This document shows, piece after piece, positions 4,642-58,199 of a stretch of DNA of 64,000 nt; within the stretch, counting starts at the first letter, position 1, and every line of letters begins with the position of its first letter. The stretch is taken from NCBI GenBank assembly GCA_903960915.1, contig CAJCCO010000141.1:1-64000 (forward strand), given 5' to 3'. A program made the translations under genes and the position numbers. The notes below the pieces were generated by a model. That model had not been told where the DNA came from. It did not search any database and saw nothing but the letters and a program-made list of their open reading frames with translations. Source of the stretch: an uncultured beta proteobacterium. Lineage in GTDB: Bacteria; Pseudomonadota; Gammaproteobacteria; Burkholderiales; Burkholderiaceae_C.

Positions 4642-4647
4642 GGCGGT

Positions 4648-8387: not shown

Positions 8388-8428
8388 GGCAATCCTTTGG
8401 CTGTAAACCGGGGAAACGGAAAAACGGA

Positions 8429-35732: not shown

Positions 35733-37163
35733 ATGCACACCCCCCAACAGCCCTACACCGAGAGCGCGACCGACAGCCTGGTCGCCGAGTTGGTCGCCCG
35801 TGCGCGCGCCGCCCAACAAATAGCTGAGGGCTACGACCAGGCCCGCGTGGACGAGTTGGTCAGCGCCGCCGGCTGGGCCATCATTGAGCCGGCCCGTAAC
35901 CGCGCCTTGGCCGAGCTGGCGGTGGCCGACACCGGCGTGGGCAATGTGGACGACAAGATTCGCAAGAACCACCGCAAGACCTTTGGCCTGTTGCGCGACC
36001 TGCAGGGCGCCAAATCTGTGGGCGTGCTGCATGACGACGCGGCCACCGGCATCACCGAAATTGCCCGCTCGGTGGGGGTGGTGTGCGCCATCACGCCCAG
36101 CACCAACCCGGCGGCCACACCGGCCAACAAGATCATCAACGCGCTCAAAGGGCGCAACGCCGTCATCGTGGCGCCTTCGCCCAAAGGCTGGTCTACCTGC
36201 GAGCGGTTGGTGCAGTACATCCACGCCCAGTTTGACTTGATTGGTGCGCCGCACGACCTGGTGCAGGTGCTGTCCTCGCCGGTCAACAAAGCGTCAACCC
36301 AGAGCCTGATGCGCCAATGCGACCTGGTGGTGGCCACCGGTTCACAGGCCAATGTGCGCGCCGCCTATGCCAGCGGCACGCCGGCGTTTGGTGTGGGCGC
36401 CGGCAACGTGGCCGGCATAGTGGACGAGAGCGCCGACCTGGCACTGTCCAGCGAGCGCATTCTGCGCTCCAAAACCTTTGACAACGCCACCAGCTGCTCC
36501 TCAGAGAACAGCCTGGTGCTGCTAGATGCCATTCGCGCCCCGGCCATTGCCGCTTTGTGCGCGCGCGGCGCGGTGCTGCTCAACGCCGCAGAAAAAGCGC
36601 AACTGCAGGCCGTGATGTGGCCTGACGGCAAGCTCTCGCCAGCCGTCATTGGGCAAAACGCGCAGGTGGTGGCACAGCGCGCCGGCTTGACCGCGATTGC
36701 CGCGCTGCAACCACGCCTGCTGCTGGTAGAAGAAGACCAAGTGGGCGAGGCCCACCCGTTCTCCGGCGAAAAACTGTGCCCAGTGCTCACGCTCTACGGC
36801 GCAAGCGACTTTACCGCCGCCATGCAGCAAGTGGCGCGCATTTACAGCTTTCAGGGCGCCGGCCACTCGGTGGGCTTGCACAGCGCGCACCCCGAGCGCG
36901 CCTTGCAACTTGGCCTGCACCTGCCGGTGTCGCGCGTGATCGTGGACCAGGCGCATGCCATTGCCACCGGCGGCAGCTTTGACAACGGCCTGCCGTTCTC
37001 GCTGTCCATGGGCTGTGGCACCTGGGGCAAAAACAATTTCTCCGAAAACATGAACTACCGCCACTACCTGAACATCACGCGTATCTCGCGCCCCATCCCC
37101 GAGCGCCTGCCCAGCGAAGCGGCGATCTTTGGCGCCTACTTTGCCAAGTACGGCCAGACATGA
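35733..37163 (+). CDS. sauS: Sulfoacetaldehyde dehydrogenase, CoA-acylating (SauS)
   Basis: This 476-residue member of the acylating aldehyde dehydrogenase group (EutE/AdhE-N like) has the cofactor region TPSTNPAATPANKIINALKG and the catalytic cysteine near residue 255 in NATSCSSENS. The final part reads MGCGTWGKNNFSENMNYRHY. Length and these segments resemble SauS, which reduces sulfoacetyl-CoA to sulfoacetaldehyde with NADPH. The next gene is the matching CoA ligase, overlapping by four bases. Acetaldehyde or succinate-semialdehyde activity is possible by family; the sulfonate context decides. Its product is the substrate of Xsc, 25 kb away. Confidence 0.82.
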   Translation: MHTPQQPYTESATDSLVAELVARARAAQQIAEGYDQARVDELVSAAGWAIIEPARNRALAELAVADTGVGNVDDKIRKNHRKTFGLLRDLQGAKSVGVLHDDAATGITEIARSVGVVCAITPSTNPAATPANKIINALKGRNAVIVAPSPKGWSTCERLVQYIHAQFDLIGAPHDLVQVLSSPVNKASTQSLMRQCDLVVATGSQANVRAAYASGTPAFGVGAGNVAGIVDESADLALSSERILRSKTFDNATSCSSENSLVLLDAIRAPAIAALCARGAVLLNAAEKAQLQAVMWPDGKLSPAVIGQNAQVVAQRAGLTAIAALQPRLLLVEEDQVGEAHPFSGEKLCPVLTLYGASDFTAAMQQVARIYSFQGAGHSVGLHSAHPERALQLGLHLPVSRVIVDQAHAIATGGSFDNGLPFSLSMGCGTWGKNNFSENMNYRHYLNITRISRPIPERLPSEAAIFGAYFAKYGQT

Positions 37164-38701
37164 GCGCCACCGTTCGCACGCTGATCGAGGCCCAGGCCCG
37201 CCAGCGCCCGCAAGCCATTTATGCCTGCACCCCTCAGGAGCAGGCTCAGGCGGAGGGGCAGGGACCGGGCCAGGCCGCATTCACTTTTTCCGAGCTGGCG
37301 CGCTCTTGCCGCCAGACTGCCGCCTGGCTTTGCGCGCTGGGCTCGCAGCCGGGCGAGACGGTGTCCGTGGTCATGCCCAATGGTTTGCAAACGCTGCGCC
37401 TGTTGCTGGGCGCGCTGCACGGCGGCTGGTGCGTGAACCCGGTCAACCTGCTGTCCCAACCCGAGCAAATGCGCTACGTGCTGGAGCACTCCGACTGCAC
37501 CGTGGTGCTGGCCAGCCCAGACTGGGCTGAGGCCGTGGCCAAAATCCTCACGCAGATAGCGCGCCCCATCACCCTGCAGGTGTGCGACCCCGAGCGCAAT
37601 GACTTGCCCCCGCAAGAACGGCTGACCCCGGCGCCGGCGCCCGAGGCCCTGGCGCTGCTGATGTACACCTCGGGCACCACTGGCGTGCCCAAAGGCGTGA
37701 TGCTGACGCAAGCCAACCTGGCGGCCAACGCGCAAGCCATCAGCACCGAACATGCGCTCACCCCCAGCGACCGCGTGCTGGCCGTGCTGCCGCTCTACCA
37801 TATCAATGCCTTTGCTGTGACCATGCTCGCCCCCCTGGCGCACGGCGGCAGCCTGGCCATGCCGCCCAAGTTTTCAGCCGCGCGCTTTTGGCAACAAGCC
37901 GTACAGGCACGTTGCACCTGGATCAACGTGGTGCCCACCATGATCTCCTACCTGCTGGAGGGCGCACCGCCAGCGGGCGATACCTCGGGCCTGCGCTTTT
38001 GCCGCTCGGCCTCGGCCGCGTTGCCGCCCGACCACCTGCGGGCGTTTGAGCAGCGCTTTGGCATTGGCATCATCGAGACCATGGGCCTGACTGAAACCGT
38101 GGCCCCATCGTTCTCCAACCCGCTGGCGCCTGCGCAGCGCAAGCTCGGCGCGGTGGGCCGGGCCTCGGGTGGCGAGGCCTGCGTTATCAACGCGCAGTTG
38201 CAAACGCTGCCCGACGGCGAGACCGGCGAGATTGCCATTCGCGGCCCCCACGTGATGCGCGGTTACTACAAAAACGAGGAAGCCACGCAAGCGGCCTTCA
38301 CCCCCGACGGCTGGCTGCGCACCGGCGACCTGGGGCACCGTGACAGTGACGGTTTTTTCTTTGTCACCGGCCGCATCAAGGAGCTGATCATCAAGGGCGG
38401 CGAGAACATTGCGCCGCGTGAAATTGACGAGGCGCTGTTACGCCACCCCGCCGTGCTCGACGCTGCCGCTGTGGGTTTTCCTGACCGCCATTACGGGCAA
38501 GATATTTTGGTGTGCCTGGTGCTGCGCCCGGGCCACCACGTGCTTGATGACGAGCTGCGCGCCTTTTGCCTGGAACACCTGGGGCGCTTCAAAACACCCC
38601 GGCACTTTTGCCGGCTGGACGACCTGCCGCGCGGGCCGTCAGGCAAGGTGCAACGGCTCAAGCTGTTGAGCTTGCCAGCCTGTCAGGCCTTGCTTGGTTG
38701 A
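37160..38701 (+). CDS. sauT: Sulfoacetate-CoA ligase, AMP-forming (SauT)
   Basis: This 513-residue adenylate-forming enzyme has the P-loop-like MYTSGTTGVPKGVMLTQANL, the A5-like MGLTETVAPSF, the hinge GWLRTGDLGHRD and the C-terminal lysine motif GPSGKVQR. It activates a carboxylic acid with ATP and CoA. ATGA overlap with sauS and the sulfonate setting support sulfoacetate as substrate, giving sulfoacetyl-CoA. Without context it would read as a generic acyl-CoA synthetase. The N-terminal region has a low-complexity QEQAQAEGQGPGQ stretch. Confidence 0.8.
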   Translation: MSATVRTLIEAQARQRPQAIYACTPQEQAQAEGQGPGQAAFTFSELARSCRQTAAWLCALGSQPGETVSVVMPNGLQTLRLLLGALHGGWCVNPVNLLSQPEQMRYVLEHSDCTVVLASPDWAEAVAKILTQIARPITLQVCDPERNDLPPQERLTPAPAPEALALLMYTSGTTGVPKGVMLTQANLAANAQAISTEHALTPSDRVLAVLPLYHINAFAVTMLAPLAHGGSLAMPPKFSAARFWQQAVQARCTWINVVPTMISYLLEGAPPAGDTSGLRFCRSASAALPPDHLRAFEQRFGIGIIETMGLTETVAPSFSNPLAPAQRKLGAVGRASGGEACVINAQLQTLPDGETGEIAIRGPHVMRGYYKNEEATQAAFTPDGWLRTGDLGHRDSDGFFFVTGRIKELIIKGGENIAPREIDEALLRHPAVLDAAAVGFPDRHYGQDILVCLVLRPGHHVLDDELRAFCLEHLGRFKTPRHFCRLDDLPRGPSGKVQRLKLLSLPACQALLG

Positions 38702-41397: not shown

Positions 41398-41429
41398 CTG
41401 GCACTATGAAGGTCTGCATCTGGCCCTGT
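41398..41429 (+). promoter_or_regulatory. Predicted TauR operator upstream of first tauA
   Basis: Two direct copies of CTGGCNCTRT, CTGGCACTAT (41398-41407) and CTGGCCCTGT (41420-41429), start 22 bases apart, two helical turns. A further CTGGCCCTAA lies at 41480-41489. The repeats resemble the CTGGAC-type direct repeats described for TauR of Rhodobacter (from memory). They lie 100-130 bases before the tauA start. Confidence 0.65.
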
Positions 41430-41528
41430 GCGAAGAGATTTTTTTCGGCCAAACTGTTACTGCCCATCGGGTTGGCACGCTGGCCCTAAAAAAATGGCCG
41501 TGACATATTTATAAACAGGAGATCAAGA

Positions 41529-42539
41529 ATGGAAATGAAATTTTTACCCACGGTAACCAAAACCCTCGCCGGCTTGCTGCTCGCCGTCGGCCTGACCAGT
41601 GCTTATGCACAAACCAAAGAAGTCACCTTTGCGCACCAGGACATGCTGGTGCCACTGCGTACGGTCATGGAGTCGGGTGAGCTGGAAAAAGCCACCGGTT
41701 ACAAAATTAACTGGCGCATGTTTGGCGGCGGTGGCGATGTCATCAAGGCCATGGCCTCAGGTGGCGTGCAAATCGGCGAAGCCGGCTCCAGCCCCATCAC
41801 TGCGGCGGCCAGCCAGGGCCAGGACATCAAACTCTTCTGGATTCTGGACGACATCGCGGATGCCGAAGCTTTGATCTCGCGCAATGGCGCTGGCATCAAC
41901 AGTGTGAAAGACCTCAAAGGCAAAAAAGTGGCGACGCCCTTTGTCTCTACGGCGCACTACCAGTTGATGGCGATCATGAAGGTGGAGGGTGTTGATGCCA
42001 AGGGCGTCAACGTGATGAACATGCGGCCACCAGAAATTGCAGCGGCTTGGGAGCGTGGCGACATCGACGCGGCCTTCATCTGGGACCCCATCCTCTCCAA
42101 GATCAAAGGCAACGGCAAGACTATTGCGACCTCCAAGACCATTGGCGCCAAGGGTTTCCCAACCTTTGACGGCCTGGTGGTGAACGCCCAGTGGGCGAGC
42201 GAGAACGAGGCCTTCATGGTGGCGCTGGTCAAAGCCCTGGCCAAGGCCGACGGTGAATACCGCGCCAACAAAGCCAAGTGGACTGTGGACTCTCCGCAAG
42301 TCAAAGCTGTTGCCAAGTGGACCAAGGCTGACGCCAAAGACGTGCCGCCTTCCATGGCGCTGTACACCTTCCCCACTATGCAAGAGCAGATCGGACCCAA
42401 GTGGCTGGGCGGTGCAGCCGCCAAGGCCATGAGCACCACAGCTGACTTCTTGAAAGAACAGGGCCGTATCCAGGAAGTCAAGAAAGACTACTCGGCCTTC
42501 GTGACCGACGTCTACATCAAGAAAGCCATGGCCAAATAA
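41529..42539 (+). CDS. tauA: Taurine ABC transporter substrate-binding protein TauA (copy 1)
   Basis: This 336-residue protein has a signal peptide (residues 1-27, ending AYA-Q) and a TauA/SsuA-type fold. It shows GGVQIGEAGSSPITAAASQG, FVSTAHYQLMAIMKVEG, RPPEIAAAWERGDIDAAFIW and FLKEQGRIQEV, all with clear counterparts in E. coli TauA. It binds taurine or a related aminosulfonate in the periplasm. AGGAG lies seven bases before the ATG. It has its own promoter region with a repeat operator and is closed by a strong terminator, so it is transcribed separately from the second copy. Confidence 0.9.
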   Translation: MEMKFLPTVTKTLAGLLLAVGLTSAYAQTKEVTFAHQDMLVPLRTVMESGELEKATGYKINWRMFGGGGDVIKAMASGGVQIGEAGSSPITAAASQGQDIKLFWILDDIADAEALISRNGAGINSVKDLKGKKVATPFVSTAHYQLMAIMKVEGVDAKGVNVMNMRPPEIAAAWERGDIDAAFIWDPILSKIKGNGKTIATSKTIGAKGFPTFDGLVVNAQWASENEAFMVALVKALAKADGEYRANKAKWTVDSPQVKAVAKWTKADAKDVPPSMALYTFPTMQEQIGPKWLGGAAAKAMSTTADFLKEQGRIQEVKKDYSAFVTDVYIKKAMAK

Positions 42540-42563
42540 ACGCGCCTAACTGCGCAACCCCGA

Positions 42564-42593
42564 GGCGAAGCCACCAGGCTTCGCCTTTTTTTT
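42564..42593 (+). terminator. Intrinsic terminator after first tauA
   Basis: GGCGAAGCC-ACCA-GGCTTCGCC is a perfect 9-bp stem followed directly by eight or more T. It begins 24 bases after the tauA stop and separates this gene from the next tauA copy. Confidence 0.93.
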
Positions 42594-42752: not shown

Positions 42753-42784
42753 CTGGCCCTGTAAAAGCATGCATCTGGCTCTAC
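42753..42784 (+). promoter_or_regulatory. Predicted TauR operator upstream of second tauA
   Basis: CTGGCCCTGT (42753-42762) and CTGGCTCTAC (42775-42784) are direct repeats with the same 22-base period as before the first tauA. An extra half-site CTGGAACTGG overlaps at 42747. A TACAAA hexamer at 42803-42808 could be the -10. The 360-base gap holding this site also contains, at 42688 onward, a block (CCAATGAAAACTG) closely resembling one at 41333 before the first tauA, showing that the promoter region was duplicated with the gene. Confidence 0.68.
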
Positions 42785-42899
42785 TACAAGCGGTCCACTG
42801 CGTACAAACTCATATGCTCATGCGGTCAGGTTGTTAGCCCCCGGCTAGCATGGACTTGCAATCATGCACACCCAATTTTTTTCAGAAAGATACCTCGCC

Positions 42900-43913
42900 A
42901 TGAAAATGACAATGCTCCCGGTTCTCGCCAAAACACTGGTCGGCCTGATGGTCGCCGTGGGCTTGTCCTCGGCTTTTGCGCAAGCCAAAAAAGAAGTGAC
43001 CTTTGCCCACCAGGATATGGTGTTTCCCTACCGCACCGTGATGGAGTCCGGTGAGCTGGAAAAAGCCACGGGCTACAAAATTAACTGGCGCATGTTTGGC
43101 GGCGGTGGCGATGTCATCAAGGCCATGGCCTCCGGTGACGTGCACATTGGTGAAGTGGGCTCCAGCCCACTGGCAGCGGCTGCCAGCCAAGGTCAAGACA
43201 TCAAGCTGGTCTGGATTCTGGACGACATCGCCAGCTCTGACGTGCTGGTGGCGCGCAATGGCTCCGGCGTGAACAGCTGGGCCGACCTCAAAGGCAAAAA
43301 AGTGGCGACCCCGTTTGTCTCCACCGCGCATTACTCCCTGATGGTGGGCATGAAGCTCAACGGCGTGGACACCAAAGGCGTCAACGTGATGAACATGCGT
43401 CCGCCCGAAATCGCTGCGGCTTTTGAGCGTGGTGATATCGACGCCGCCTTCATCTGGGACCCCGTCATGTCCAAGATCAAACGCAACGGCAAAGCCATTG
43501 CCACCTCAGGCGATGTAGGCAAGCTGGGTTACCCCACGTTTGACGGCCTGGTGGTCAACGCCAAGTGGGCGGCTGAGCACAAAGACTTTGTTGTGGCGCT
43601 GATCAAGGCCATCTCCAAAGCCGACGCCGAGTACCGTACCAACGCCGCCAAATGGACGGTGGGTTCTGCCCCCATCAAAGCCGTGGCCAAGTGGACCAAA
43701 GCCGACGAAAAAGACGTGCCTGAAGCCATGGCGCAGTTTGTCTTCCCTGACAACAACGCCCAGCTGTCGGCTGCCTGGTTGGGTGGCGGTGCCGCCAAGA
43801 CCCTGGCCAACACATCGGCCTTCTTGAAAGAGCAAGGCCGTTTGCAAGAAGTCAAGCCAGACTACAACGCCTTTATTGACACCAGCTACCTCAAAGAGGC
43901 GATGAAGAAGTAA
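42900..43913 (+). CDS. tauA: Taurine ABC transporter substrate-binding protein TauA (copy 2)
   Basis: This 337-residue paralogue of the preceding gene shares near-identical stretches (for example INWRMFGGGGDVIKAMASG), the same RPPEIAAAFERGDIDAAFIW segment and an aligned signal peptide ending AFA-Q. The ATG at 42900 is chosen because it aligns with copy 1; an ATG at 42864 would add 12 residues. It directly precedes tauB and is followed by a hairpin with a T-run that probably lets only part of the transcript continue. The copies differ around residues 105-150, near where ligand specificity may lie. Confidence 0.9.
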   Translation: MKMTMLPVLAKTLVGLMVAVGLSSAFAQAKKEVTFAHQDMVFPYRTVMESGELEKATGYKINWRMFGGGGDVIKAMASGDVHIGEVGSSPLAAAASQGQDIKLVWILDDIASSDVLVARNGSGVNSWADLKGKKVATPFVSTAHYSLMVGMKLNGVDTKGVNVMNMRPPEIAAAFERGDIDAAFIWDPVMSKIKRNGKAIATSGDVGKLGYPTFDGLVVNAKWAAEHKDFVVALIKAISKADAEYRTNAAKWTVGSAPIKAVAKWTKADEKDVPEAMAQFVFPDNNAQLSAAWLGGGAAKTLANTSAFLKEQGRLQEVKPDYNAFIDTSYLKEAMKK

Positions 43914-43988: not shown

Positions 43989-44777
43989 ATGCCAACCCTT
44001 GAAGTAAAAGACCTGACCGTCAACTACGCCGTCAAAGGCGGGACGCTGCAAGCGCTAGCCCCCGTCAACATGACGATGCATGACGGCGACTTTGTCGTCG
44101 CGCTAGGCGCATCAGGCTGTGGCAAGACCACGCTGCTCAATTGCATTGCCGGCTTTCTGCCGCCCTCCACCGGCGAAATTTTGCTCGATGGCCAACCCGT
44201 GGTGGGCCCTGGTGCAGACCGCGGCGTTGTGTTTCAGAAACATGCGCTGATGCCCTGGCTCTCGGTGCGCGACAACGTCGCCCTGGGCTTGCGCATGCGA
44301 GGCGTGGACCGTGCCACGCGCAACCGCGTGGCGGACGAAAAACTCGCCCAGGTGGGCTTGGAAAAATACGCCGAGCGTGGCGTGTATGAACTGTCGGGTG
44401 GTATGCAGCAGCGCGTCGGCATTGCCCGCGCACTGGCCAGCGACCCCTCCGTACTACTGATGGATGAACCGATGGGCGCACTCGATGCGTTCACCCGCGA
44501 AACCGTGCAAGAAATTTTGCTGCGCGCCTGGTCCCAGTCGAACAAGATGGTGTTCTTTATCACCCACTCGGTGGAAGAAGCCCTGTTTCTGGCCACGCGC
44601 CTGATTGTGATGAGCCCCAGCCCCGGGCGCATCACGCACACCTACGACAACGTGCCGTTCTCGCGTGAATTTTTGTCGCACGGCGATGCCCGCAAGGTCA
44701 AGTCCGAGCCCGAGTTCATCCGTATGCGCGAAGAAGTGCTGTCCATCATTCACAACCGGGAGGAGGCACATGTCTAA
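43989..44777 (+). CDS. tauB: Taurine ABC transporter ATP-binding protein TauB
   Basis: This 262-residue ATPase has Walker [14 protein letters not shown], the Q-loop region [20 protein letters not shown], signature [14 protein letters not shown] and Walker [14 protein letters not shown]. It is the single ATPase of the SsuB/TauB group and works as a homodimer with TauC. It overlaps tauC by eight bases, and the ribosome site of tauC (AGGAGG) lies in its last codons. Confidence 0.92.
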
Positions 44778-45588
44778 TCCAGCCAACACCAAACTCAAAA
44801 CCAGCGCCTTCAAGGTGCCCGGCGAAGGCCCCAGCGCGCTCATCAGCGTGACCACGGTCAGCCTTATTTTGTTGCTGTGGTTTGTGTCCACCAACATGGG
44901 CTGGATCAAACCTATTTTCTTACCTTCACCGCAAGCCACCTTCCAGCAGTTTTACGAGTACCTCACCGGTACCGCCAACGACAAACCGCTGTGGGAGCAC
45001 TTCGCCGCCAGCATGTTCCGCGTCTTTGCAGCCTTCTTCCTGGCCTGCATTTTTGCCATACCGATTGGCATTGCCATGGGCATGTCGCGCATCTGGAAAG
45101 GTATTTTTGATCCGCCGATCGAACTCTACCGCCCGCTGCCCCCGCTGGCTTATCTGCCGCTGATCATCATCTGGTTCGGCATTGATGAATTGCCCAAGGT
45201 ACTGCTGATTTTTCTGAGTTGTTTTGCACCGCTGGCCATGGCGGCACGCTCCGGCATGCGCAGCGCCTCGCAAGAGCAGATGAACGCGGCCTACTCCATG
45301 GGCGCGAGTTACCCCCAGGTGATCTGGCACGTGGTGCTGCCAGCGGCCATGCCAGAGATCTTGGTGGGCATGCGCGTGGCCATTGGTTTTGGCTGGAGCA
45401 CCCTGGTGGCCGCTGAGATGGTGGCCGCCAATGTGGGCCTGGGACAAATGGTGTTGAACGCCTCCAACTTCTTGCGTACCGACATTGTGGTGATGGGCAT
45501 CATCGTCATTGGTGTGGTGGCCTATATGTTTGACCTGCTGATGCGCTGGGCCGAGCGCAAGCTGGTGCCGTGGAAAGGCAAAGCCTGA
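44770..45588 (+). CDS. tauC: Taurine ABC transporter permease TauC
   Basis: This 272-residue permease has about six membrane helices. The BPD_transp_1 docking loop is in [20 protein letters not shown] and the family segment [20 protein letters not shown] follows. The start is the ATG at 44770, with AGGAGG four bases upstream, in place of longer frames inside tauB. It forms the taurine channel. Its stop overlaps the start of the ureohydrolase gene (TGATG), tying that enzyme to the transporter transcript. Confidence 0.93.
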
Positions 45589-46559
45589 TGAGCGACCCCT
45601 TCTTCACCCCCATTACCGGCTCGGTCATGCCGCGCGTTGCCGGCTTGGCTACGCTCATGCGCTTGCCCTACGTGGGGTTTGAAGATGCGCAGTTTGCCAA
45701 CGTCGACATTGGCTTGATTGGTGTGCCCTGGGACGGCGGCACCACCAACCGCCCGGGTGCCCGCCACGGCCCGCGCCAGGTGCGCGACATCTCCACCATG
45801 GTGCGCAACGTCAACCGTGCCAGCGGCCTCAAGCCGTTCTCGATCTGCAACTGCGCCGACCTGGGCGACACCCCGGTCAACCCGGTGGACCTGATGGATT
45901 CTCTGGACCGCATTCACGCCTTTTACGACAAGGTCTGCGGCGCCGGCATTGCCCCCTTGTCTGTGGGGGGCGACCACCTGGTGAGCCTGCCCATCCTGCG
46001 GGCGCTGGCCAAGAACGGCCCCGTCGGCATGGTGCACTTTGACGCCCACACCGACACCTGGGACGGCTACTTTGGCGGCTTCAAGTACACCCACGGCACA
46101 CCATTTCGGCGCGCCATTGAAGAAGGTTTACTCGACCCCAAACGCACCATTCAAATTGGCATTCGCGGTGCGCTCTACAACGATGCCGAAGACACCTGGG
46201 GCCAGGAGCAAGGCATTCGCGTGATCGACATTGACGAGTTTCACGCCATGGGCCTCGAAGCAGTGATGGCCGAGGCGCGCCGCGTGGTGGGCGACGGGCA
46301 AACTTACGTCAGCTTTGATGTGGACGCGCTCGACCCGGTTTATGCGCCCGGCACCGGCACGCCAGAAATTGGCGGCCTGACCACGCTCGAAGCGCAGCGC
46401 ATGGTGCGCATGCTCCAGGGCCTGAACCTGGTGGGTGGCGATGTGGTGGAAGTGTCCCCCCCGTTTGACCCCAGCGGCAACACCGCCCTGGTAGGCGCCA
46501 CCATGATGTTCGAGATTCTGTGCGTGCTGGCCGACAGCATCAAACAGCGCAAGGGCTGA
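45588..46559 (+). CDS. Ureohydrolase (agmatinase/guanidinobutyrase family), candidate taurocyamine hydrolase
   Basis: This 323-residue metal hydrolase shows all family motifs: GVPWDGGTTNRPGARHGP, the metal-ligand boxes VGGDH (near 125), FDAHTD (near 150) and SFDVDALDP (near 245), and the late Glu in VEVSPPFD. The family removes urea from guanidino compounds: agmatine, guanidinobutyrate, guanidinopropionate. Translational coupling to tauC (TGATG at 45586-45590) suggests a guanidino-sulfonate such as taurocyamine, giving taurine and urea. Guanidinopropionase is recorded to act slowly on taurocyamine, so the chemistry is within the family. Substrate is inference. Confidence 0.8.
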   Translation: MSDPFFTPITGSVMPRVAGLATLMRLPYVGFEDAQFANVDIGLIGVPWDGGTTNRPGARHGPRQVRDISTMVRNVNRASGLKPFSICNCADLGDTPVNPVDLMDSLDRIHAFYDKVCGAGIAPLSVGGDHLVSLPILRALAKNGPVGMVHFDAHTDTWDGYFGGFKYTHGTPFRRAIEEGLLDPKRTIQIGIRGALYNDAEDTWGQEQGIRVIDIDEFHAMGLEAVMAEARRVVGDGQTYVSFDVDALDPVYAPGTGTPEIGGLTTLEAQRMVRMLQGLNLVGGDVVEVSPPFDPSGNTALVGATMMFEILCVLADSIKQRKG

Positions 46560-47162: not shown

Positions 47163-48749
47163 TTATGCCACCCGCAAACCAACTCGGCGTGGCGCACCGC
47201 GGGCGCGCGCCAGTTCGTCGACTGCCAGGCTCAGGGCTTTGATGCCGGCGCCAATTTGCTCGGCGTTGATGGACGACAAGCGCAGCCTGAAGTAGGGGCA
47301 GGGGTAGGGCGGGCTCATGAAGAAGACCTCCCCGGCCTCAATCAGCACGCCATGCGAGCGCGCAATCAGGGCCAGCTCGCCCGAGTCAACCCAGGCCGGC
47401 GCCCGCACCCAAACCGAGGCGCCGCCCGAGGGCAGGGTGAATTCGAAGTCGGGCAGGCACGTGGTCAAGGCCTGGGCCACCAGCGCCATGCGCTCCTGCA
47501 TGGCCTGGTTGACCCGCCGCGCATGGGCATCATGGTGGCCCAGCGATAAAAACAGGGCAAAAGCGTGCTGCAAGAAGGCGCTGGGGTGGCGCATCATGGC
47601 GTGGCGCAAACCGCGCAACTCGGCAATCAGCGCGCGCGGCGCCACGATGTAACCCAGGCGCAGCGACGGCGACAAACTCTTGGAGACCGAGCCCACGTAA
47701 ATCACGCGCCCCACCTTGTCCAGGCTTTTGAGCGCGGGCATGGGTTCGCCGGCGTACAGGTTCTCGGCCTCGTAGTCGTCCTCAATCACCACAAAATTTT
47801 GTTGTGCCGCCTGGCTCAGCAGCAGCTTGCGCCGCTCCAGGCTCAGGGTGCCGGTGGTGGGGCTTTGGTGCGAGGGCGTGACAAACACGTAGTCCAGCGC
47901 CGGCAGGCGCTCCACCACCAGGCCGTGCGCGTCTACCGCCACTGGCACGCACTGGGGCTGGCGCAGGGCAAAGCTGTTGCGCGCATGCGGGTGGCCAGGC
48001 TCTTCCAGCCCAACGCGCTGGGTCTCGTCAAACAGGGCCTCTGCCAGCAGGTAGTAGGCGTGCTGGGCGCCCACGGTGATGATGATTTCTTCTGGCAAGG
48101 CAAACACGCCCCGCTTGGGCAGCAGGCGCAGGCGAATTTGCTCAATCAGCTCGGGCACGTCGCTGAGTTCAAAGTCCGGCGTCCAGTGCGGCAAATGGGC
48201 GCGCGCCAGGCTGTGCACGCAGCACTCGCGAAACGCCTCCGACGGAAACAACAGCGGATCGAAGGTACCGTAAACAAAAGGGTAGGCGTAGTTGCGCCAT
48301 TGGTCAGGTTTGGCCAGGGTGCGCTGGTCGGCCAAAGAGCGCAGCACGCGCCCGGTCCAGTCGGGCGGCTGGCTGACGGCGGCGCTGCCCGCCGTGCCGG
48401 CAAGCCCAATCAGGGCGGGCGCCTGCGCCTGAAACGGGTCTTGCGGCTTGTCCTGGGCCACGGCGGCGTGCTGCTTGTTGGTGACAAACACGCCACTGCG
48501 GGGGCGCGATTCGATGAAGCCGTCGTCTATCAGGTGCATATACGCGGCCGTCACCGTATTGCGGCTCAGGCCCAGCACGTTGGCCAGCTCGCGCGACGAG
48601 GGCAGCAGGGCGCCCACCGGCAAGCGACCGTCCAGAATGGCTTGCACCACGGACAGGCGCAAGCGCTGCTGCAGGGGTAAAGCGGGCTTGTCGGGCAGGG
48701 CAAACAGGCTTTCCCACTGGGCGTCTTTGGTTCGGTGAAATTTGGTCAT
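47163..48749 (-). CDS. tauR: MocR-type (GntR/aminotransferase) regulator TauR
   Basis: The protein has 528 residues. An N-terminal GntR winged helix (LLPSSRELANVLGLSRNTVT at about 50-75) is fused to an aminotransferase-like, PLP-binding domain. The PLP lysine motif is SVSKSLSPSLRLGYIV and the substrate-binding part has DYEAENLY and GGASVWVRAP. The start at 48749 (MTKFHRTKD) gives the normal family length. TauR of other proteobacteria is a MocR protein that activates taurine genes and senses taurine through PLP. Position beside tauXY and the tau transporter supports the assignment. Confidence 0.8.
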   Translation of the reverse strand: MTKFHRTKDAQWESLFALPDKPALPLQQRLRLSVVQAILDGRLPVGALLPSSRELANVLGLSRNTVTAAYMHLIDDGFIESRPRSGVFVTNKQHAAVAQDKPQDPFQAQAPALIGLAGTAGSAAVSQPPDWTGRVLRSLADQRTLAKPDQWRNYAYPFVYGTFDPLLFPSEAFRECCVHSLARAHLPHWTPDFELSDVPELIEQIRLRLLPKRGVFALPEEIIITVGAQHAYYLLAEALFDETQRVGLEEPGHPHARNSFALRQPQCVPVAVDAHGLVVERLPALDYVFVTPSHQSPTTGTLSLERRKLLLSQAAQQNFVVIEDDYEAENLYAGEPMPALKSLDKVGRVIYVGSVSKSLSPSLRLGYIVAPRALIAELRGLRHAMMRHPSAFLQHAFALFLSLGHHDAHARRVNQAMQERMALVAQALTTCLPDFEFTLPSGGASVWVRAPAWVDSGELALIARSHGVLIEAGEVFFMSPPYPCPYFRLRLSSINAEQIGAGIKALSLAVDELARARGAPRRVGLRVA

Positions 48750-48752
48750 GGT

Positions 48753-48866
48753 CCAGTTCCAGGGTGACAGATCCAGTTGGGGTGCGCCATTGTGCCCAAT
48801 TCGCCCCATCTACGGGGTGCTGGCTTGTGCGAATGACCGCATCTGGCTCTATCAAACTGGCCCCAA
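48753..48866. promoter_or_regulatory. tauR-tauX intergenic control region with TauR-like half-sites
   Basis: On the plus strand CTGGCTTGTG (48820-48829), CTGGCTCTAT (48843-48852) and CTGGCCCCAA (48857-48866) face tauX. On the minus strand CTGGATCTGT (48776-48767) and CTGGAACTGG (48762-48753) face tauR. CTGGCTCTAT is nearly identical to the element before the second tauA. Spacings here are 23 and 14 bases, looser than the 22-base pairs before tauA. A TATTCT at 48873-48878 could be the tauX -10. Confidence 0.55.
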
Positions 48867-48910
48867 CTTCTCTATTCTCGTGCACCAACACATCCTTACT
48901 GGAGATCGAA

Positions 48911-49306
48911 TTGAGCCACGCCCCCATCACCACCGCCACCCTGGAAGCCTTCAGCGCGGCCTGGAACCGCCACGACATTGACGCCCTGATGAGCTTCATG
49001 ACCGATGACTGCGTCTTCATGACCGCTGCCGGCCCCGATGTCTGCGGCACCCGCCATGCAGGCACCGAAGCCGTGCGCAAAGCCTTTGCTGGCGCCTGGG
49101 GCGGTGTGCCCGATGTGCAGTGGCTCAATGGCAAACACTTTGTACAGGGCGACTTTGGCGTGTCGGAGTGGACCTTTGTCGGCACCGCCGCCGACGGCAG
49201 CCGCATTGAGACCGATGGCGTTGACCTTTTCACGTTCCGCGACGGAAAAATTGCCGTGAAAAACGCCTTCCGCAAAGCCCGCCCCAACCTGCCCGCTTCC
49301 AAATAA
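48911..49306 (+). CDS. tauX: Taurine dehydrogenase small subunit TauX (SnoaL/NTF2-like)
   Basis: This 131-residue protein has a SnoaL/NTF2-like fold, with EAFSAAWNRHDIDALMSFMT and TFVGTAADGSRIETDGVDLF. I place the start at the TTG at 48911, since GGAG precedes it by six bases and the protein then has the usual family length. In taurine degraders a small NTF2-like TauX is encoded before the flavoprotein TauY. It precedes tauY by 30 bases here and probably forms its partner subunit. The role of the small subunit in catalysis is not well established. Confidence 0.8.
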   Translation: MSHAPITTATLEAFSAAWNRHDIDALMSFMTDDCVFMTAAGPDVCGTRHAGTEAVRKAFAGAWGGVPDVQWLNGKHFVQGDFGVSEWTFVGTAADGSRIETDGVDLFTFRDGKIAVKNAFRKARPNLPASK

Positions 49307-49336: not shown

Positions 49337-50743
49337 ATGAGCACCGCAAGTGATACCCGCTACGACCCGCAGTACGACCCCCTGGTAGCCGCCAACCCCG
49401 GCGCCGGGCGCGGCTACGCACCGACCTACTGGGTCGCCAGCGCCGGTACGCCCCCCGCAGACGACGGCCCCATCCAGGGCGATGTCGACGTGGACGTGGT
49501 GGTCATCGGTTCGGGCTCTACCGGCATGTCCACGGCGCTCTACCTGGCACAAGAGCATGGCATTCAGGCCGTGGTGCTGGAGGCCAACCAGACCGCCTGG
49601 GGCTGCTCCAGCCGCAGCGGTGGCCAGGGCCAAAATGCCAGCGGCCGCCTGACCCGTTCGCAGTGGATTGAACGCTGGGGCCTGGACACCGCCAAGGCGC
49701 TCGACACCGAGATTCGCACCGGCTTTGATAACTTCAAGGCGCTCACCCGCGAGATCGATTGCGACGCCTTTGACGGCGGCCACCTGTACATAGCGCACCG
49801 CAAAGAAAAAGTGGCTTACCTGCAAGAGCAAACCCGGGTGCGGCGCGACATTTTTGGCTACAAAGCCAAGATGCTGACGACCGAAGAATTGCGCGAGCAA
49901 TATTGCGACGAACGCGACGCCCACGCCGCCATGTGGGAGCCCGAAGGGGTCGGCATTCACCCGCTCAAGTTCACCTTTGGTTTGATGCGCAAAGCGCGCG
50001 CGCTGGGTGTGAAAGTGCATACCGCCAGCCCGGTGCAGGGCTGGCAAACCATCAATGGCGTGCACCACCTGCAAACCCCTGGCGGCGTGGTACGCGCCCG
50101 GCGGGTGGCGGTGTGCACCGGCGGCTACACCGGGCAGGGACTCAGCCCGCTGCTCAAGAACAAGATACTGCCTATCTTGTCGAACTCGGTCACCACGCGC
50201 CCGCTGACCGCCGCCGAACTGGCCGCCACCAACTTCCGCTCGCAAACCTTCTTGACCGACACGCGCACACTGCGTTTTTACTACCGCCTGCTGCCCGACA
50301 ACCGGCTGCAACTCGGCAGCCGCAGCGCCATCACCGGGGCCGAGTCCGAAGACCCCGGCCACCTCAAGCTGCTCACCGACGCCATTGCGCGCAAATTCCC
50401 GCCTTTGGCCGGCATTGAGATTGAGCACTCGTGGTGGGGCTGGGTCGATGTCAGCCACGACATGATGCCGCGCATTGCCCGCCCCGACCCCGCACAAACG
50501 GTGTGGCACGCGGTGGGCTACGGCGGCAACGGCGTTTCGTTCTCCACCTGGGCCGGCAAGCGCCTGGCCGAGCGGGTGGCGGGCAAAGACGCAGGGCAAG
50601 CGGTGTTCAATCTGCCCATCTACAACTCGCCACTGGAATACCCCAACCTCTTTAACGTGGTGCGCTCGCAAGCCTTTGCCCCCTTCAGGCGCTTTGGCCA
50701 GTACTTTTTGTACAAGTGGTACTGGATGCAAGATGAGCTGTAA
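49337..50743 (+). CDS. tauY: Taurine dehydrogenase large subunit TauY (FAD-dependent)
   Basis: This 468-residue DAO-family flavoenzyme has a Rossmann FAD motif VVVIGSGSTGMSTALYLAQ at about residues 55-75, a Gly-rich SSRSGGQGQNASG loop and the C-terminal YGGNGVSFSTWAGKRLAERV. Resemblance to gamma-glutamylputrescine oxidase-type enzymes is evident, so the pairing with TauX decides. It oxidatively deaminates taurine to sulfoacetaldehyde and ammonia, passing electrons to an acceptor; its product feeds Xsc. The N-terminal ~50 residues before the FAD strand are longer than in glycine oxidases, as in other family members. Confidence 0.82.
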   Translation: MSTASDTRYDPQYDPLVAANPGAGRGYAPTYWVASAGTPPADDGPIQGDVDVDVVVIGSGSTGMSTALYLAQEHGIQAVVLEANQTAWGCSSRSGGQGQNASGRLTRSQWIERWGLDTAKALDTEIRTGFDNFKALTREIDCDAFDGGHLYIAHRKEKVAYLQEQTRVRRDIFGYKAKMLTTEELREQYCDERDAHAAMWEPEGVGIHPLKFTFGLMRKARALGVKVHTASPVQGWQTINGVHHLQTPGGVVRARRVAVCTGGYTGQGLSPLLKNKILPILSNSVTTRPLTAAELAATNFRSQTFLTDTRTLRFYYRLLPDNRLQLGSRSAITGAESEDPGHLKLLTDAIARKFPPLAGIEIEHSWWGWVDVSHDMMPRIARPDPAQTVWHAVGYGGNGVSFSTWAGKRLAERVAGKDAGQAVFNLPIYNSPLEYPNLFNVVRSQAFAPFRRFGQYFLYKWYWMQDEL

Positions 50744-50856: not shown

Positions 50857-52449
50857 ATGAACCACCTGACCCTCTCCCGTCGCAAGTCTCTGGCCCTGGC
50901 CCTGTTGGCCGCGCTGCCGCACATGAGTTCTCTCGCTGCCCCTGAGGCGCCCAAGCGCGGCGGCACGCTGGTGGTGGGTTCCACGCAGGTCATGCGCCAC
51001 GTCAACGGCGCGGTGCAGTCCGGTATTGCCACGGCGATGCCCAGCACACAAATTTTTGCCAGCCCGCTGCGCTTTGACGACAAGTGGAATGCCCAGCCCT
51101 ACCTGGCTGAAAAATGGTCGCTCGCGGCCGACGGCAAGTCTTTGACGCTGAACCTGCGCAAGGGCGCGGTGTTCCATGACGGCAAGCCCATCACCTCGGA
51201 AGACGTGGCGTTCTCCATCATGTCCATCAAGGCCAACCACCCCTTCACCACCATGTTTGGTCCGGTGGAAAAAGTGGAAACCCCAGATGCGCACACCGCC
51301 ATCATCCGCATGAGCACGCCGCACCCCGCCATCATTCTGGCCATGGCGCCAGCGCTGTGCCCCATCATTCCGAAGCACATTTACGGTGACGGCACCGACC
51401 TCAAAGTACACCCCCGCAACAGCACCGATGTGGTGGGCTCCGGGCCGTTTCGCATGACCGAGTTCAAGGCCGGCCAGCGCGTGGTGCTGGAACGCTTTGA
51501 CAAATTCTTCCTGGCGGGCAAGCCCTACCTGGACAAGATCATCATCAACGTCAACCCCGACTCCAACAACCTGCTGCTGGGTCTGGAGCGCGGTGAATAC
51601 CAAATGCTGCCGTACGGCACCAACTCTACCGAACTCAAGCGAGTGGCATCCAATCCAAAGCTGAACCTCACCAACAAGGGCTTTGAAGGCATTGGCTCCT
51701 TGAACTGGCTGGCCTTCAACACCGCCAAAAAACCACTCAACGATGTGAACGTGCGCAAAGCCATCGCCATGACCATCGACAAGAAATTCATCAGCAAAGC
51801 CCTGCACGGCGGCTTCTCGCAACCCGCTGACGGCCCCATTGTGGCCAGCAGCCCGTTTGCTATTCCTGACGTGATCACCTACCCGCTGGACCTGAAAAAA
51901 GCCGGCGAGCTGCTGGATGCCGCAGGCTACAAAGTGGGTGCCAATGGTGAGCGCATGAAGCTCACCATTGATTACATTCCCGGTGGCGACGAGCAGCACA
52001 AAAGCGTAGCCGAGTACCTGCGCGCCCAGCTCAAGAAAATTGGTGTGACATTGGAGGTGCGCGCCTCGGCAGACTTCCCCGCCTGGGCCAAACGTATCGC
52101 CACGCGTGACTTTGACATGACCATGGACACCGTCTTCAACTGGGGCGACCCCGTCATTGGCGTGCACCGCACCTACCTGTCCACCAACATTCGCCCGATC
52201 ATCTGGACCAACACCCAGTCCTACAACAACCCCAAGGTGGATGAGTTGCTCAACACCGCCGGCGGCCTGCTCGACCCCACCAAGCGCAAGGCCTACTACG
52301 CCACGTTCCAGAAAATCGTGACCGACGAGTTGCCCATCCACTTCATCAACAACACGCCGTACCACACCGCCACCACAAAAAATGTCATGAACGTGCCCAC
52401 CACCATCTGGGGCCCCGCATCGCCGTATGACGAGGTGTACTTTAAGTAA
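50857..52449 (+). CDS. Peptide/dipeptide-type ABC transporter substrate-binding protein
   Basis: The protein is a 530-residue SBP_bac_5 member. The N terminus has twin basic residues and a hydrophobic stretch (LSRRKSLALALLAALPHMSS), a possible Tat or Sec signal. Family features include GGTLVVGSTQVMRHVNGA, SLTLNLRKGAVFHDGKPITS and NDVNVRKAIAMTIDKKFISK. It leads a seven- to eight-gene plus-strand run of permeases, ATPases, amidohydrolase, GTPase and hydrolase. The amidohydrolase downstream suggests an amide or cyclic amide ligand, but the ligand is not read from sequence. Confidence 0.93.
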   Translation: MNHLTLSRRKSLALALLAALPHMSSLAAPEAPKRGGTLVVGSTQVMRHVNGAVQSGIATAMPSTQIFASPLRFDDKWNAQPYLAEKWSLAADGKSLTLNLRKGAVFHDGKPITSEDVAFSIMSIKANHPFTTMFGPVEKVETPDAHTAIIRMSTPHPAIILAMAPALCPIIPKHIYGDGTDLKVHPRNSTDVVGSGPFRMTEFKAGQRVVLERFDKFFLAGKPYLDKIIINVNPDSNNLLLGLERGEYQMLPYGTNSTELKRVASNPKLNLTNKGFEGIGSLNWLAFNTAKKPLNDVNVRKAIAMTIDKKFISKALHGGFSQPADGPIVASSPFAIPDVITYPLDLKKAGELLDAAGYKVGANGERMKLTIDYIPGGDEQHKSVAEYLRAQLKKIGVTLEVRASADFPAWAKRIATRDFDMTMDTVFNWGDPVIGVHRTYLSTNIRPIIWTNTQSYNNPKVDELLNTAGGLLDPTKRKAYYATFQKIVTDELPIHFINNTPYHTATTKNVMNVPTTIWGPASPYDEVYFK

Positions 52450-52470
52450 GTTGTCTACCGCCTGGCACGG

Positions 52471-53445
52471 ATGCAGACGCTGAAATTACTCGCCTCCCGA
52501 CTCGCCCAGGGCCTGGCCCTGGTGCTGGCCGTGGTGGTGCTTAACTTTGTGCTGGTGCATGCCGCGCCGGGTGATCCGGTCGAAACGATTGCCGGCGCCA
52601 GCGGCGGCATGGACGAAAAACTGCAGGCCGAGCTGCGCGCCAAGTACGGACTAGACCAACCTGTCCCCGTGCAACTGGGCATTTACCTGGGCAAAGTGGT
52701 GCGTGGCGATCTGGGCTACTCCTACTTCTTCAACCTGCCGGTGTCCGACCTGATTCTTGAGCGCGTGCCCGCCACGCTGCTGCTGGTGCTGACCTCGGTG
52801 CTGACGGCGTTTTTAATTGGTACAGCGCTGGGCGTTTTGTCCTCGCGCAAACCCAACGGTTGGCTGTCGCAACTCATCAATGTGATGTCCCTGGTGGGTT
52901 TTGCGGCGCCGGTGTTCTGGATGGGCATGCTGCTTATTATTTTGCTGGCGAGCATTTTTCCAGTCTTCCCGGTGTCGGGCATGCGCGGCATCGAGTCCAG
53001 CGGGCTGGGCTGGGCCGACGTGGTGGATGTGTTGCACCACCTGGTGTTGCCCTCACTCACGCTGGGCCTGGTGTACCTGGCGCAGTACAGCCGCCTGTCG
53101 CGCGCCGCCATGCTGGACGTGCTGGGCTCCGACTACATTCGCACCGCCCGTGCCAAAGGCCTGCCCGAGCGCTTGGTGCTTTACAAACATGCGCTGCGCA
53201 ACGCCGTGCTGCCCGTGGTCACCATTTTGGGTTTGCAGTTTGGCAATGTGCTGGCGGGCGCCATTGTGGTCGAAACCGTCTTCAACTGGCCCGGCCTGGG
53301 CCGGCTGGCGTTTGAGTCGGTGCTGCGGCGCGACTACCCCACCATTCTGGGCGTGCTGCTGTTCTCGTCGATCGTGGTGATTGTGATGAACCAGGTGACC
53401 GACCTGTGTTACCGCCTGATTGACCCGCGTATCAAAACCTCATGA
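52471..53445 (+). CDS. ABC transporter permease, DppB-like
   Basis: This 324-residue inner-membrane permease shows LKLLASRLAQGLALVLAVVV at the start, YGLDQPVPVQLGIYLGKVVR-type loops, GDLGYSYFFNLPVS and the docking motif near RAAMLDVLGSDYIRTARAKG. About six membrane helices are visible. It overlaps the next permease gene by four bases (ATGA), 21 bp after the binding-protein gene. Confidence 0.95.
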   Translation: MQTLKLLASRLAQGLALVLAVVVLNFVLVHAAPGDPVETIAGASGGMDEKLQAELRAKYGLDQPVPVQLGIYLGKVVRGDLGYSYFFNLPVSDLILERVPATLLLVLTSVLTAFLIGTALGVLSSRKPNGWLSQLINVMSLVGFAAPVFWMGMLLIILLASIFPVFPVSGMRGIESSGLGWADVVDVLHHLVLPSLTLGLVYLAQYSRLSRAAMLDVLGSDYIRTARAKGLPERLVLYKHALRNAVLPVVTILGLQFGNVLAGAIVVETVFNWPGLGRLAFESVLRRDYPTILGVLLFSSIVVIVMNQVTDLCYRLIDPRIKTS

Positions 53446-54302
53446 AAAAAACACTTCAGGTGGAAGGCCCTTGGCGCGAGGCGCTGCGCATGTTTGCGCG
53501 CAATCCCTCGGCCATTGCGGGCATGCTGATGCTGGGCCTGGTGCTGCTGGTGAGCCTGGGCGGCCCCTGGCTCATGGGTGCTGACCCGTTTGAAATTCGC
53601 GCCGCCCCCATGACACCACCGTTCTCTGAAGACGCTTTGCTGGGCACCGATTATTTGGGCCGCGACGTGCTCACCACGCTGATCTACGGCGGGCGCGCCA
53701 CGCTCTTGGTAGGCGCCGTGGCGGCCTTGTTGTCGGTCTCCATTGGCATCACGCTCGGTGCCATGGCCGGCTACTACGGCGGCCGGGTCGACGCCGTGCT
53801 GATGCGCGTCACCGAGTTCTTTCAGGTGCTGCCAGCGCTGTTGTTTGCCATGGTGGTGGTGACGCTGTTCTCGCCCACGCTATTAACCATCACGCTGGCC
53901 ATTGGCGTGGTGAGCTGGACCGGCACCGCCCGGCTGACCCGCGCCGAGTTCTTGAAATACCGCAACCTCGAATTTGTGCGCGCCGAGCGTGCCATTGGCG
54001 CCAGCCACGCACGCATCATCTGGCAGGTGATCTTGCCCAACGCCCTGCCGCCACTGATTGTGTCGGCCACGCTGGCCATTGGCGCAGCTATTTTGTTTGA
54101 AGCCGGCCTGGCCTTTTTGGGGCTGGGCGACCCCAACCAAATGAGCTGGGGCCTGATGATTGGCTCCAGCCGCCAATACGTGCTGACCTGCTGGTGGGCC
54201 GTGGCCTTCCCAGGTGCGGCCATCTTTGTTACCGTGCTGGCGGTCAGCCTGATTGGCGACGGCCTGAACGATGCCCTCAACCCCAAACTCCGGGAGCGCT
54301 GA
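53442..54302 (+). CDS. ABC transporter permease, DppC-like
   Basis: This 286-residue DppC-type permease begins with a short cytoplasmic segment (EALRMFARNPSAIAGMLML) and the loop LGTDYLGRDVLTTLIYGGRA, followed by about five further helices. The docking motif is in RAEFLKYRNLEFVRAERAIG. It shares stop and start (TGATG) with the following ATPase gene, so the membrane and ATPase parts are translated together. Confidence 0.95.
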   Translation: MKKTLQVEGPWREALRMFARNPSAIAGMLMLGLVLLVSLGGPWLMGADPFEIRAAPMTPPFSEDALLGTDYLGRDVLTTLIYGGRATLLVGAVAALLSVSIGITLGAMAGYYGGRVDAVLMRVTEFFQVLPALLFAMVVVTLFSPTLLTITLAIGVVSWTGTARLTRAEFLKYRNLEFVRAERAIGASHARIIWQVILPNALPPLIVSATLAIGAAILFEAGLAFLGLGDPNQMSWGLMIGSSRQYVLTCWWAVAFPGAAIFVTVLAVSLIGDGLNDALNPKLRER

Positions 54303-55339
54303 TGTCTGACCCAGCCAGCACCGCCCTGCTGCAAGTGCACGATTTGCGGGTGGAATTCAACACCCGGCGCGGTAAAGCGATGGTGCTCAATGGCGTCGAC
54401 CTGAGCATTCACAGCGGCGAAACCCTGTGCGTGGTGGGCGAGTCTGGTTGCGGCAAAAGCATGACCGCGCTGGCCTTGCTGCGGCTCATTCCCAGTCCGC
54501 CGGGGCGCATCAGCGGCGGCCAGGTGCTGTTTCAGGGCGAAGACCTGGTGCAGGCCAGCGACGAGCGCATGCGCGAGGTGCGCGGCAACCGCATCTCCAT
54601 GATTTTTCAGGAACCCATGACCTCGCTCAACCCGGTGTTCACCGTGGGCGACCAGATTGGTGAATCGCTCAAGCTGCACGCCGGACTGAACGTGGCCGGC
54701 GCGCGCACGCAAGCCATTGAGATGCTCAAGCAAGTGGGCATTCCAGCGCCCGAGAAGCGCGTGGACGAGTACCCGCACCAACTCTCCGGCGGCATGCGCC
54801 AGCGCGTCATGATTGCCATGGCGCTGGCCTGCCGCCCAGATATTTTGATTGCCGACGAACCCACCACCGCGCTCGACGTGACGGTGCAGGCGCAAATTTT
54901 TGACCTGCTGCGCGACCTGCAGCGCGAGAAGGGCACGGCCATTTTGCTCATCACGCACGACATGGGCGCGGTCGCTGAAATGGCCGACCGCGTGATGGTG
55001 ATGTACGCCGGTCGCGTGGTGGAAGCCGGCCTGACCGCGCAAGTGCTCGGCCAACCCGGCCACCCCTACACCCAAGGCTTGATCAACTGCTTGCCCGAGC
55101 TGGGCAGCAGCCAGCAAAGCGAGCGCGCCGACCTGGCCGAGATTGCCGGTATGGTGCCGTCGATCTGGGAGCTGGGTACCGGTTGCGCTTTTCGAGAGCG
55201 CTGCCCGCAGGCACTGCCTATTTGCGCCCAAGAGGTGCCCCCCATGTTTGAGCTGCCCGACAGCACGCCCATCGCCTTGCACCGCAGCGCCTGCTGGTTG
55301 CAGCAAGACCGCAGCGCCGCACCGGGCCAACCCGCATGA
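54302..55339 (+). CDS. ABC transporter ATP-binding protein, DppD-like
   Basis: This 345-residue ATPase has Walker A GESGCGKSMTALALLRL, signature LSGGMRQRVMIAMAL and Walker B ILIADEPTTALDV. A C-terminal oligopeptide-transporter extension has clustered cysteines (CAFRERCPQALPIC). The start ATG at 54302 overlaps the permease stop. With the next gene it forms the heterodimeric motor. The extended frame upstream of this ATG lies inside the permease gene and was not used. Confidence 0.95.
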   Translation: MSDPASTALLQVHDLRVEFNTRRGKAMVLNGVDLSIHSGETLCVVGESGCGKSMTALALLRLIPSPPGRISGGQVLFQGEDLVQASDERMREVRGNRISMIFQEPMTSLNPVFTVGDQIGESLKLHAGLNVAGARTQAIEMLKQVGIPAPEKRVDEYPHQLSGGMRQRVMIAMALACRPDILIADEPTTALDVTVQAQIFDLLRDLQREKGTAILLITHDMGAVAEMADRVMVMYAGRVVEAGLTAQVLGQPGHPYTQGLINCLPELGSSQQSERADLAEIAGMVPSIWELGTGCAFRERCPQALPICAQEVPPMFELPDSTPIALHRSACWLQQDRSAAPGQPA

Positions 55340-56427: not shown

Positions 56428-56486
56428 CTGCAATAGCTCCACACGTGTGATTTTTACGTTGTCTTTTTAGCCTTCTTTTTTTTGGA

Positions 56487-58190: not shown

Positions 58191-58199
58191 CTACCCGCC

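Follow-up and report, generated by a model that had tools for sequence, protein, structure and literature searches.

The best explanation for UH, a ureohydrolase gene at 45588-46559 on the forward strand of the window (the whole 64,000-nt stretch of DNA that we analyzed), is that it encodes a taurocyamine hydrolase served by its own branch of a taurine importer. UH would be a metal-dependent guanidino acid hydrolase that converts taurocyamine (2-guanidinoethanesulfonate) to taurine and urea, with Arg73 of the neighbouring subunit holding the sulfonate. The binding protein TauA2, in which Asp replaces the amine-binding Glu, would deliver taurocyamine to the TauBC importer that it shares with TauA1, which would deliver taurine. 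Further metabolism would fall to TauXY and Xsc for the taurine and to urease for the urea, with TauR in control. We estimate the probability of this combined reading at about two in three. The operon, the gene overlap, the clades, the residue changes, the regulatory boxes and the pathway genes come from the sequence, from which we infer the ligand, the substrate and the regulation. That UH encodes a predicted guanidino acid hydrolase of the GpuA type and belongs to a TauR-type taurine operon is well supported.

The UH open reading frame begins with ATG and encodes 323 amino acids. The preliminary description had placed its start at a TGATG overlap with tauC, and the junction is confirmed: the tauC stop codon (TGA, 45586-45588) and the UH start codon (ATG, 45588-45590) have one base in common. 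Across the window and 23 tau-linked relatives, the probable UH start lies at −1 nt relative to the tauC stop in nine loci, at −4 in 14 and at 0 in one (L013). Since an overlap of one or four bases is found in 23 of these 24 loci, the arrangement goes beyond chance. The family was assigned by profile searches, searches for relatives of solved structure and alignment. UH matches PF00491 with 313 bits (cut-off 22) and its best solved relatives are GpuA of P. aeruginosa (446 bits; 3nip/3niq; 63.8% identity) and GbuA (339 bits; 49.5% identity), which upholds the earlier placement among enzymes that release urea from guanidino compounds. At this level of identity the fold of UH can be read from GpuA. 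The residues of the ureohydrolase (arginase) superfamily are present (His130, Asp152, His154, Asp156, Asp244, Asp246, His169 and Glu288), and we take the metal-binding roles among these catalytic and metal residues to be those known from the arginase family. Guanidinopropionase (EC 3.5.3.17) has a slow side activity on taurocyamine. None of the NCBIfam models that matched UH is a taurocyamine hydrolase model. The genome carries two other arginase-family genes, 34% and 33% identical to UH.

The genes upstream of UH, all on the forward strand, encode a taurine-type transporter with two substrate-binding proteins, both scoring above the cut-off of TIGR01729, the model for taurine TauA (357.2 and 340.7 vs. 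304.25 bits). TauA1 (41529-42539) is the ordinary taurine-type protein according to this model and to the tree described below, and TauA2 (42900-43913) is the UH-linked protein, whose reading frame opens at 42864 but whose relatives favour a start at 42900. The TauB ATPase (43989-44777; NCBIfam models) and the TauC permease (44770-45588; frame listed from 44665, start placed at 44770 by inspection) both match taurine models best but below their cut-offs (324.7 vs. 357 and 290.2 vs. 342 bits, respectively). The interval between tauA1 and tauA2 contains a terminator-like perfect 10-bp hairpin followed by a run of T (42563-42593, forward strand). Because this element separates the two genes, tauA2-tauB-tauC-UH looks like one unit, and tauA1 probably forms a transcription unit of its own.

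Downstream of UH we found a TPR protein, recognized by inspection, and a MocR-type regulator that is TauR by context (47163-48809, reverse strand). Next, on the forward strand, come TauX (48764-49306), a SnoaL-like small subunit that probably starts downstream of 48764, and TauY (49337-50743), the putative FAD subunit of taurine dehydrogenase. Neither TauX nor TauY of the window is named by an NCBIfam equivalog; they are read as taurine dehydrogenase because a homologous pair on a Ruegeria plasmid (55-56% identity) abuts xsc. Their presence in the window supports the earlier suggestion that the product of UH could feed TauXY. Xsc, sulfoacetaldehyde acetyltransferase (9418-11235; 1036 bits, cut-off 676.4), and a phosphate acetyltransferase-like Pta (8429-9397) are encoded on the reverse strand, and a urease alpha subunit is found elsewhere in the genome (180 bits). 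An Opp-type ABC transporter (OppA identified by scan, the remaining Opp genes by inspection), an Amidohydro_3 protein and a CobW GTPase follow TauXY (50857-59198, forward strand).

This gene set matches the TauR regulons of Comamonadaceae, which include OppABCDF, COG523 and COG1574 according to the text of Suvorova and Rodionov (PMC5320631), and the genes TauABC, TauXY and Xsc known under TauR are all present in this genome. Unlike the operon of the window, the TauR regulons described in section 14 of that article name no ureohydrolase, and its main text, as distinct from its supplementary tables, ties speB to GabR/GabR2 regulons and not to TauR. Two further gene groups lie in the same island. 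Genes for a molybdopterin oxidoreductase, a 4Fe-4S protein and DmsC adjoin pta and xsc (3709-8558, reverse strand) and resemble the bisC-hybA-dmsC set that the text of PMC5320631 reports in TauR regulons of Rhodobacterales. A sulfoacetate branch is represented by SauS, the acylating sulfoacetaldehyde dehydrogenase (749 bits, cut-off 600), and an adjoining CoA ligase (35733-38701).

When seven promoter stretches were scanned for the published TauR consensus, CTGGACYTAA (text of PMC5320631), we found a single-mismatch site and two sites with two mismatches each. This result led to the predicted TauR-like box CTGGCNCTA, which is close but not identical to the consensus. Two such TauR-like boxes 22 bp apart precede tauA2 (42753-42783) and two others 22 bp apart precede tauA1 (41398-41428, with a further box at 41480); a single box lies in the MocR/tauX interval (48843-48851), all on the forward strand. 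When one mismatch per box is allowed, these are the two pairs in the window with a spacing of 20-24 bp, and the exact motif CTGGCYCTA occurs at three sites in the 64 kb, upstream of tauA1, tauA2 and tauX. Upstream DNA was available for 19 loci, the window among them (L010 is truncated), and contained 45 boxes vs. 1.9 in shuffled sequences. The pair before tauA2 has the 22-bp spacing in 18 of the 19 (the window and 17 of 18 relatives), while L013 presents a weak pair at 23 bp; L011, L015, L019 and L022 carry further pairs elsewhere. One box was found in each of 15 MocR-tauX intervals (15 observed vs. 1.4 expected in all). The boxes are not confined to UH operons: besides those before tauA1, L151 has the box ahead of taurine genes that lack UH, as expected of a TauR site. 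Loci lacking tauABC presented weak pairs or none. The MocR protein, which scores above the PdxR cut-off as well (336.1 vs. 320 bits), would be the one that reads this box.

Whether the same gene adjoins tauC in related genomes had been proposed as a check, and the linkage does recur. In the best 80 of 227 loci from one scan of genome contigs for UH relatives, tauC directly precedes UH in 23, in addition to the window. These records are labelled Comamonadaceae or genera of that family, Burkholderiales or beta proteobacterium, with the exception of L033 (Sulfuritalea), for which misbinning or transfer is likely since its UH is 95% identical to that of the window. Two changes are needed to place the tau label on the UH tree. 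Because the tau-linked loci form nearly one clade, the linkage and the Glu-to-Asp change in TauA2 may each represent one event. The six closest sister loci (L005, L006 and L026-L029) are without tauABC. Two of them, L005 (Rhodoferax) and L029 (Herbaspirillum), carry TauXY and a MocR gene near UH together with an amino-acid-type importer, whose best model is lysine/arginine/ornithine, below cut-off; L006 has an importer of this kind. None of the taurine genes that we probed was found in the flanking DNA covered for L006, L026-L028 and L030. UH was detected at E ≤ 1e-120 in four of 399 sampled family genomes, including that of the window, and in the other three it is not beside tauABC. Within one lineage the linkage is thus strict, and overall it is rare. 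Beyond this lineage, the Aminobacter plasmid pSR7 presents the order LysR-UH-tauA (UH 67% identical; TauA 317 bits, cut-off 304), the one case with a TauA neighbour among eight plasmid matches inspected, and in genome G450 a weak TauA-like binding protein (134 bits) follows UH.

The two tauA genes had been thought to offer a second ligand specificity, and a probable change at the ligand end of TauA2 supports this. E. coli TauA (6ssy) contacts taurine through Gln30, Gly61, Gly79, Glu106, Thr132 and Asp205; Glu106 holds the amine, and the E106A variant has no measurable taurine binding (Qu et al., PMC6906117, in the text consulted). The tauA gene was readable in 20 of the 24 tau-linked loci (the contig ends first in L007, L009, L024 and L050). 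At the position of Glu106, all 20 UH-linked TauAs present Asp (Asp126 in TauA2 of the window, numbered from 42864), whereas all 67 distinct TauAs without UH (76 rows) present Glu. The other five contacts, including those of the sulfonate that TauA2 has in common with E. coli TauA, are kept in 20/20 UH-linked proteins; without UH, Gln30, Gly79 and Thr132 are kept in 67/67, Gly61 in 65/67, and position 205 is D in 11 and E in seven (n = 18). Of 29 columns invariant in the 67 proteins, that of Glu106 alone is changed in all 20. The statistical evidence from this change is weak (P = 0.14 for at least one of the six contacts falling among seven switched columns and 0.21 among conserved columns), and it would represent one evolutionary event. 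As chemistry, Asp would shorten the amine-gripping residue and leave the sulfonate site untouched, as a larger cationic end would need, and the change is directly testable. The TauA of pSR7 retains Glu106.

In the TauA tree, one branch (SH-aLRT 100) splits the UH-linked proteins (16 rows) from those without UH (17 rows); TauA2 of the window groups with the former and TauA1 falls on the side of the latter. The flanks of about 1.5 kb around the TauAs without UH stop short of the position of UH, so its absence there was judged from searches of the genomes. Within the family, UH and TauA were found in different genomes, with that of the window as the exception. Across the order, TauA and a UH match of 48-66% occur together in nine genomes, in each case on separate contigs or separated by more than 1 Mb. 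A class-wide TauA search (229 genomes) gave one further genome.

We further analyzed the residues of UH that might define its substrate. Arg73 corresponds to Arg72 of GbuA and, by way of that residue, to Arg105 of human GDAH (AGMAT), and Tyr161 is the equivalent of GpuA Tyr157, described as a recognition residue in the text of PMC10833137; both are kept in 82 of 82 rows (24 tau-linked rows and groups of 6, 5 and 47, GpuA being among the 47). In a model of human GDAH, Arg105 lies near the sulfonate of docked taurocyamine, and the R105 variant turned taurocyamine over three times faster than guanidinobutyrate, taurocyamine being the best among the tested substrates (PMC9772407, in the text consulted). 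Unlike UH, this enzyme is mitochondrial and broad, with a KM above 50 mM and no importer. UH belongs to a clade of 41 rows (SH-aLRT 98) characterized by N76-R77 in 40 of the 41 (L127 has His76) and by Trp158.

These residues bear on the view that UH is an ordinary guanidinopropionase, or a broad short-chain guanidino acid hydrolase, that stands in a taurine operon by chance, which we consider unlikely. GpuA is similar to UH in overall identity, catalytic motifs and the conserved Tyr, as well as in the Arg that extends into the adjacent active site in GbuA and GDAH; human GDAH is broad (PMC9772407, in part), the resemblance to GpuA equally fits guanidinopropionate, and the sequence evidence does not separate taurocyamine from other short guanidino acids. 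However, GpuA carries the loop RKVHH and Asn where UH carries RNVNR and Trp158, and the plasmid enzyme of P. aeruginosa is like GpuA, although Trp158 alone is found outside the clade as well. In addition, no beta-alanine gene was recognized in the operon, and the conserved overlap, the TauR-like boxes and the change in TauA2 are set against a chance location. Of the earlier interpretation, the linkage, the family, the supply of TauXY and the second TauA are supported, and taurocyamine is the predicted substrate.

A close relative of taurocyamine, for example hypotaurocyamine or 3-guanidinopropanesulfonate, is quite improbable as the substrate. Human GDAH also accepts both compounds (PMC9772407, in part), and hypotaurocyamine is, with taurocyamine, a phosphagen precursor according to the text of PMC6429109, but TauXY and Xsc act on C2 sulfonates and the sulfonate contacts are kept in TauA2. 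It is very improbable that UH is a polyamine agmatinase with no functional tie to taurine: agmatine hydrolysis was not detected with human GDAH, an enzyme of the GbuA/GpuA kind (PMC9772407, in part), and the genome has two further arginase-family genes. UH does exceed the cut-off of the agmatinase model TIGR01230 (191.9 vs. 174.3 bits) and homologues are named speB in plasmid records, but the second ureohydrolase of L005 passes this model too (202.1 bits), so the model is blind to substrate differences, and the best agmatinase structures (7lol and 7lba, 210 bits) score below both GpuA and GbuA. A GdmH-like guanidine hydrolase with a guanidine importer is barely credible: NitT/TauT-type ABC genes also adjoin ureohydrolases outside the UH clade (L040 and L119), but 7esr/7oi1, which we take to be the Ni-dependent guanidine hydrolase GdmH of the same superfamily, match UH much more weakly than GpuA does (154 vs. 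446 bits), the acid-binding Arg73 is invariant, both binding proteins pass the taurine model, and no guanidine riboswitch reached the gathering score in the 64-kb window.

The taurocyamine reading, if true, would provide the cycling of taurine and sulfonates with a new point of entry, bringing three nitrogens per molecule, and a set of "agmatinases" would need renaming; a metabolite of animals and protists would serve bacteria as food. Annelids are reported to have phosphotaurocyamine as a phosphagen, and taurocyamine kinases also occur in trematodes and oomycetes (PMC6429109, in part). The preliminary description had proposed a new dedicated route into sulfonate metabolism. The hydrolysis of taurocyamine as such is already known from human GDAH (PMC9772407, in part), and the part that would be new is a bacterial importer-hydrolase route. 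Among the matches listed for the open-licence PMC literature, we found neither a bacterial taurocyamine route nor a dedicated importer-hydrolase.

The neighbours of UH across the 41-row clade allow a wider and more tentative reading. The genes tauBC lie directly upstream in 24 loci, a TauA-family binding protein adjoins UH in two (L116 and L127), and five present the arrangement LysR-UH-PhnS2T2U2 (L032, L034, L035, L036 and L038); L013 combines tauABC with PhnS2. Ten have neither tau nor PhnS2 neighbours (L005, L006, L026-L030, L037, L046 and L051), with TauXY in two of these. PhnS2 scored above cut-off in the four loci tested (L013, L032, L036 and L038), and PhnS2T2U2 carries the putative annotation of an aminoethylphosphonate importer. 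Since TauA- or PhnS2-like neighbours were found inside the clade and in none of 42 genome-contig loci outside it (tblastn, 1e-10; flanks short in some), the signature R73-N74-[V/I]75-N76-R77 with Trp158 might mark ureohydrolases that act on two-carbon guanidino compounds bearing a tetrahedral oxyanion, namely taurocyamine (tauABC) and 2-guanidinoethylphosphonate (PhnS2T2U2), a generalization that we regard as doubtful. The latter compound is a natural product (ciliatocyamine). It is not mentioned in the text consulted of PMC6429109. If the generalization holds, importers that take their names from the amine (taurine, aminoethylphosphonate) would often carry the guanidino form, and phosphagen leftovers of protists and worms would enter bacterial sulfonate and phosphonate metabolism. 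For L036, a phosphonate interpretation based on a PhnN-like gene was dropped, the gene being fused to AMP/thymidine phosphorylase. The six loci with UH and PhnS2 genes mostly carry a LysR gene and a gene for a small DSP-type phosphatase.

Other arrangements were observed around UH homologues. Two or three ureohydrolase genes follow one another, separated by short gaps or overlapping by 4 bases, in L005 (8804-10990), L026 (7942-10981), L118 (4985-6966), L121 (4994-6948), L128 and L129; among the UH sisters, L026-L028 have such tandems. Metformin hydrolase is a hetero-oligomer, and by analogy these tandem products are perhaps hetero-oligomers as well. A gene for a TauE/SafE-like exporter lies 0.1-1.3 kb before the UH homologue in L044, L045, L048, L049, L046, L051 and L029 (called by Pfam in L029 and by inspection and similarity in the others); L044 belongs to the Gamma 3 symbiont of Olavius algarvensis, a marine worm. 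Finally, the window contains a match to PYLIS_3, the pyrrolysine insertion element of mttB (21069-21172, reverse strand; 39.7 vs. gathering score 38), inside an MttB-family reading frame (20669-22222) that has no internal stop and is probably a non-pyrrolysine MttB relative.
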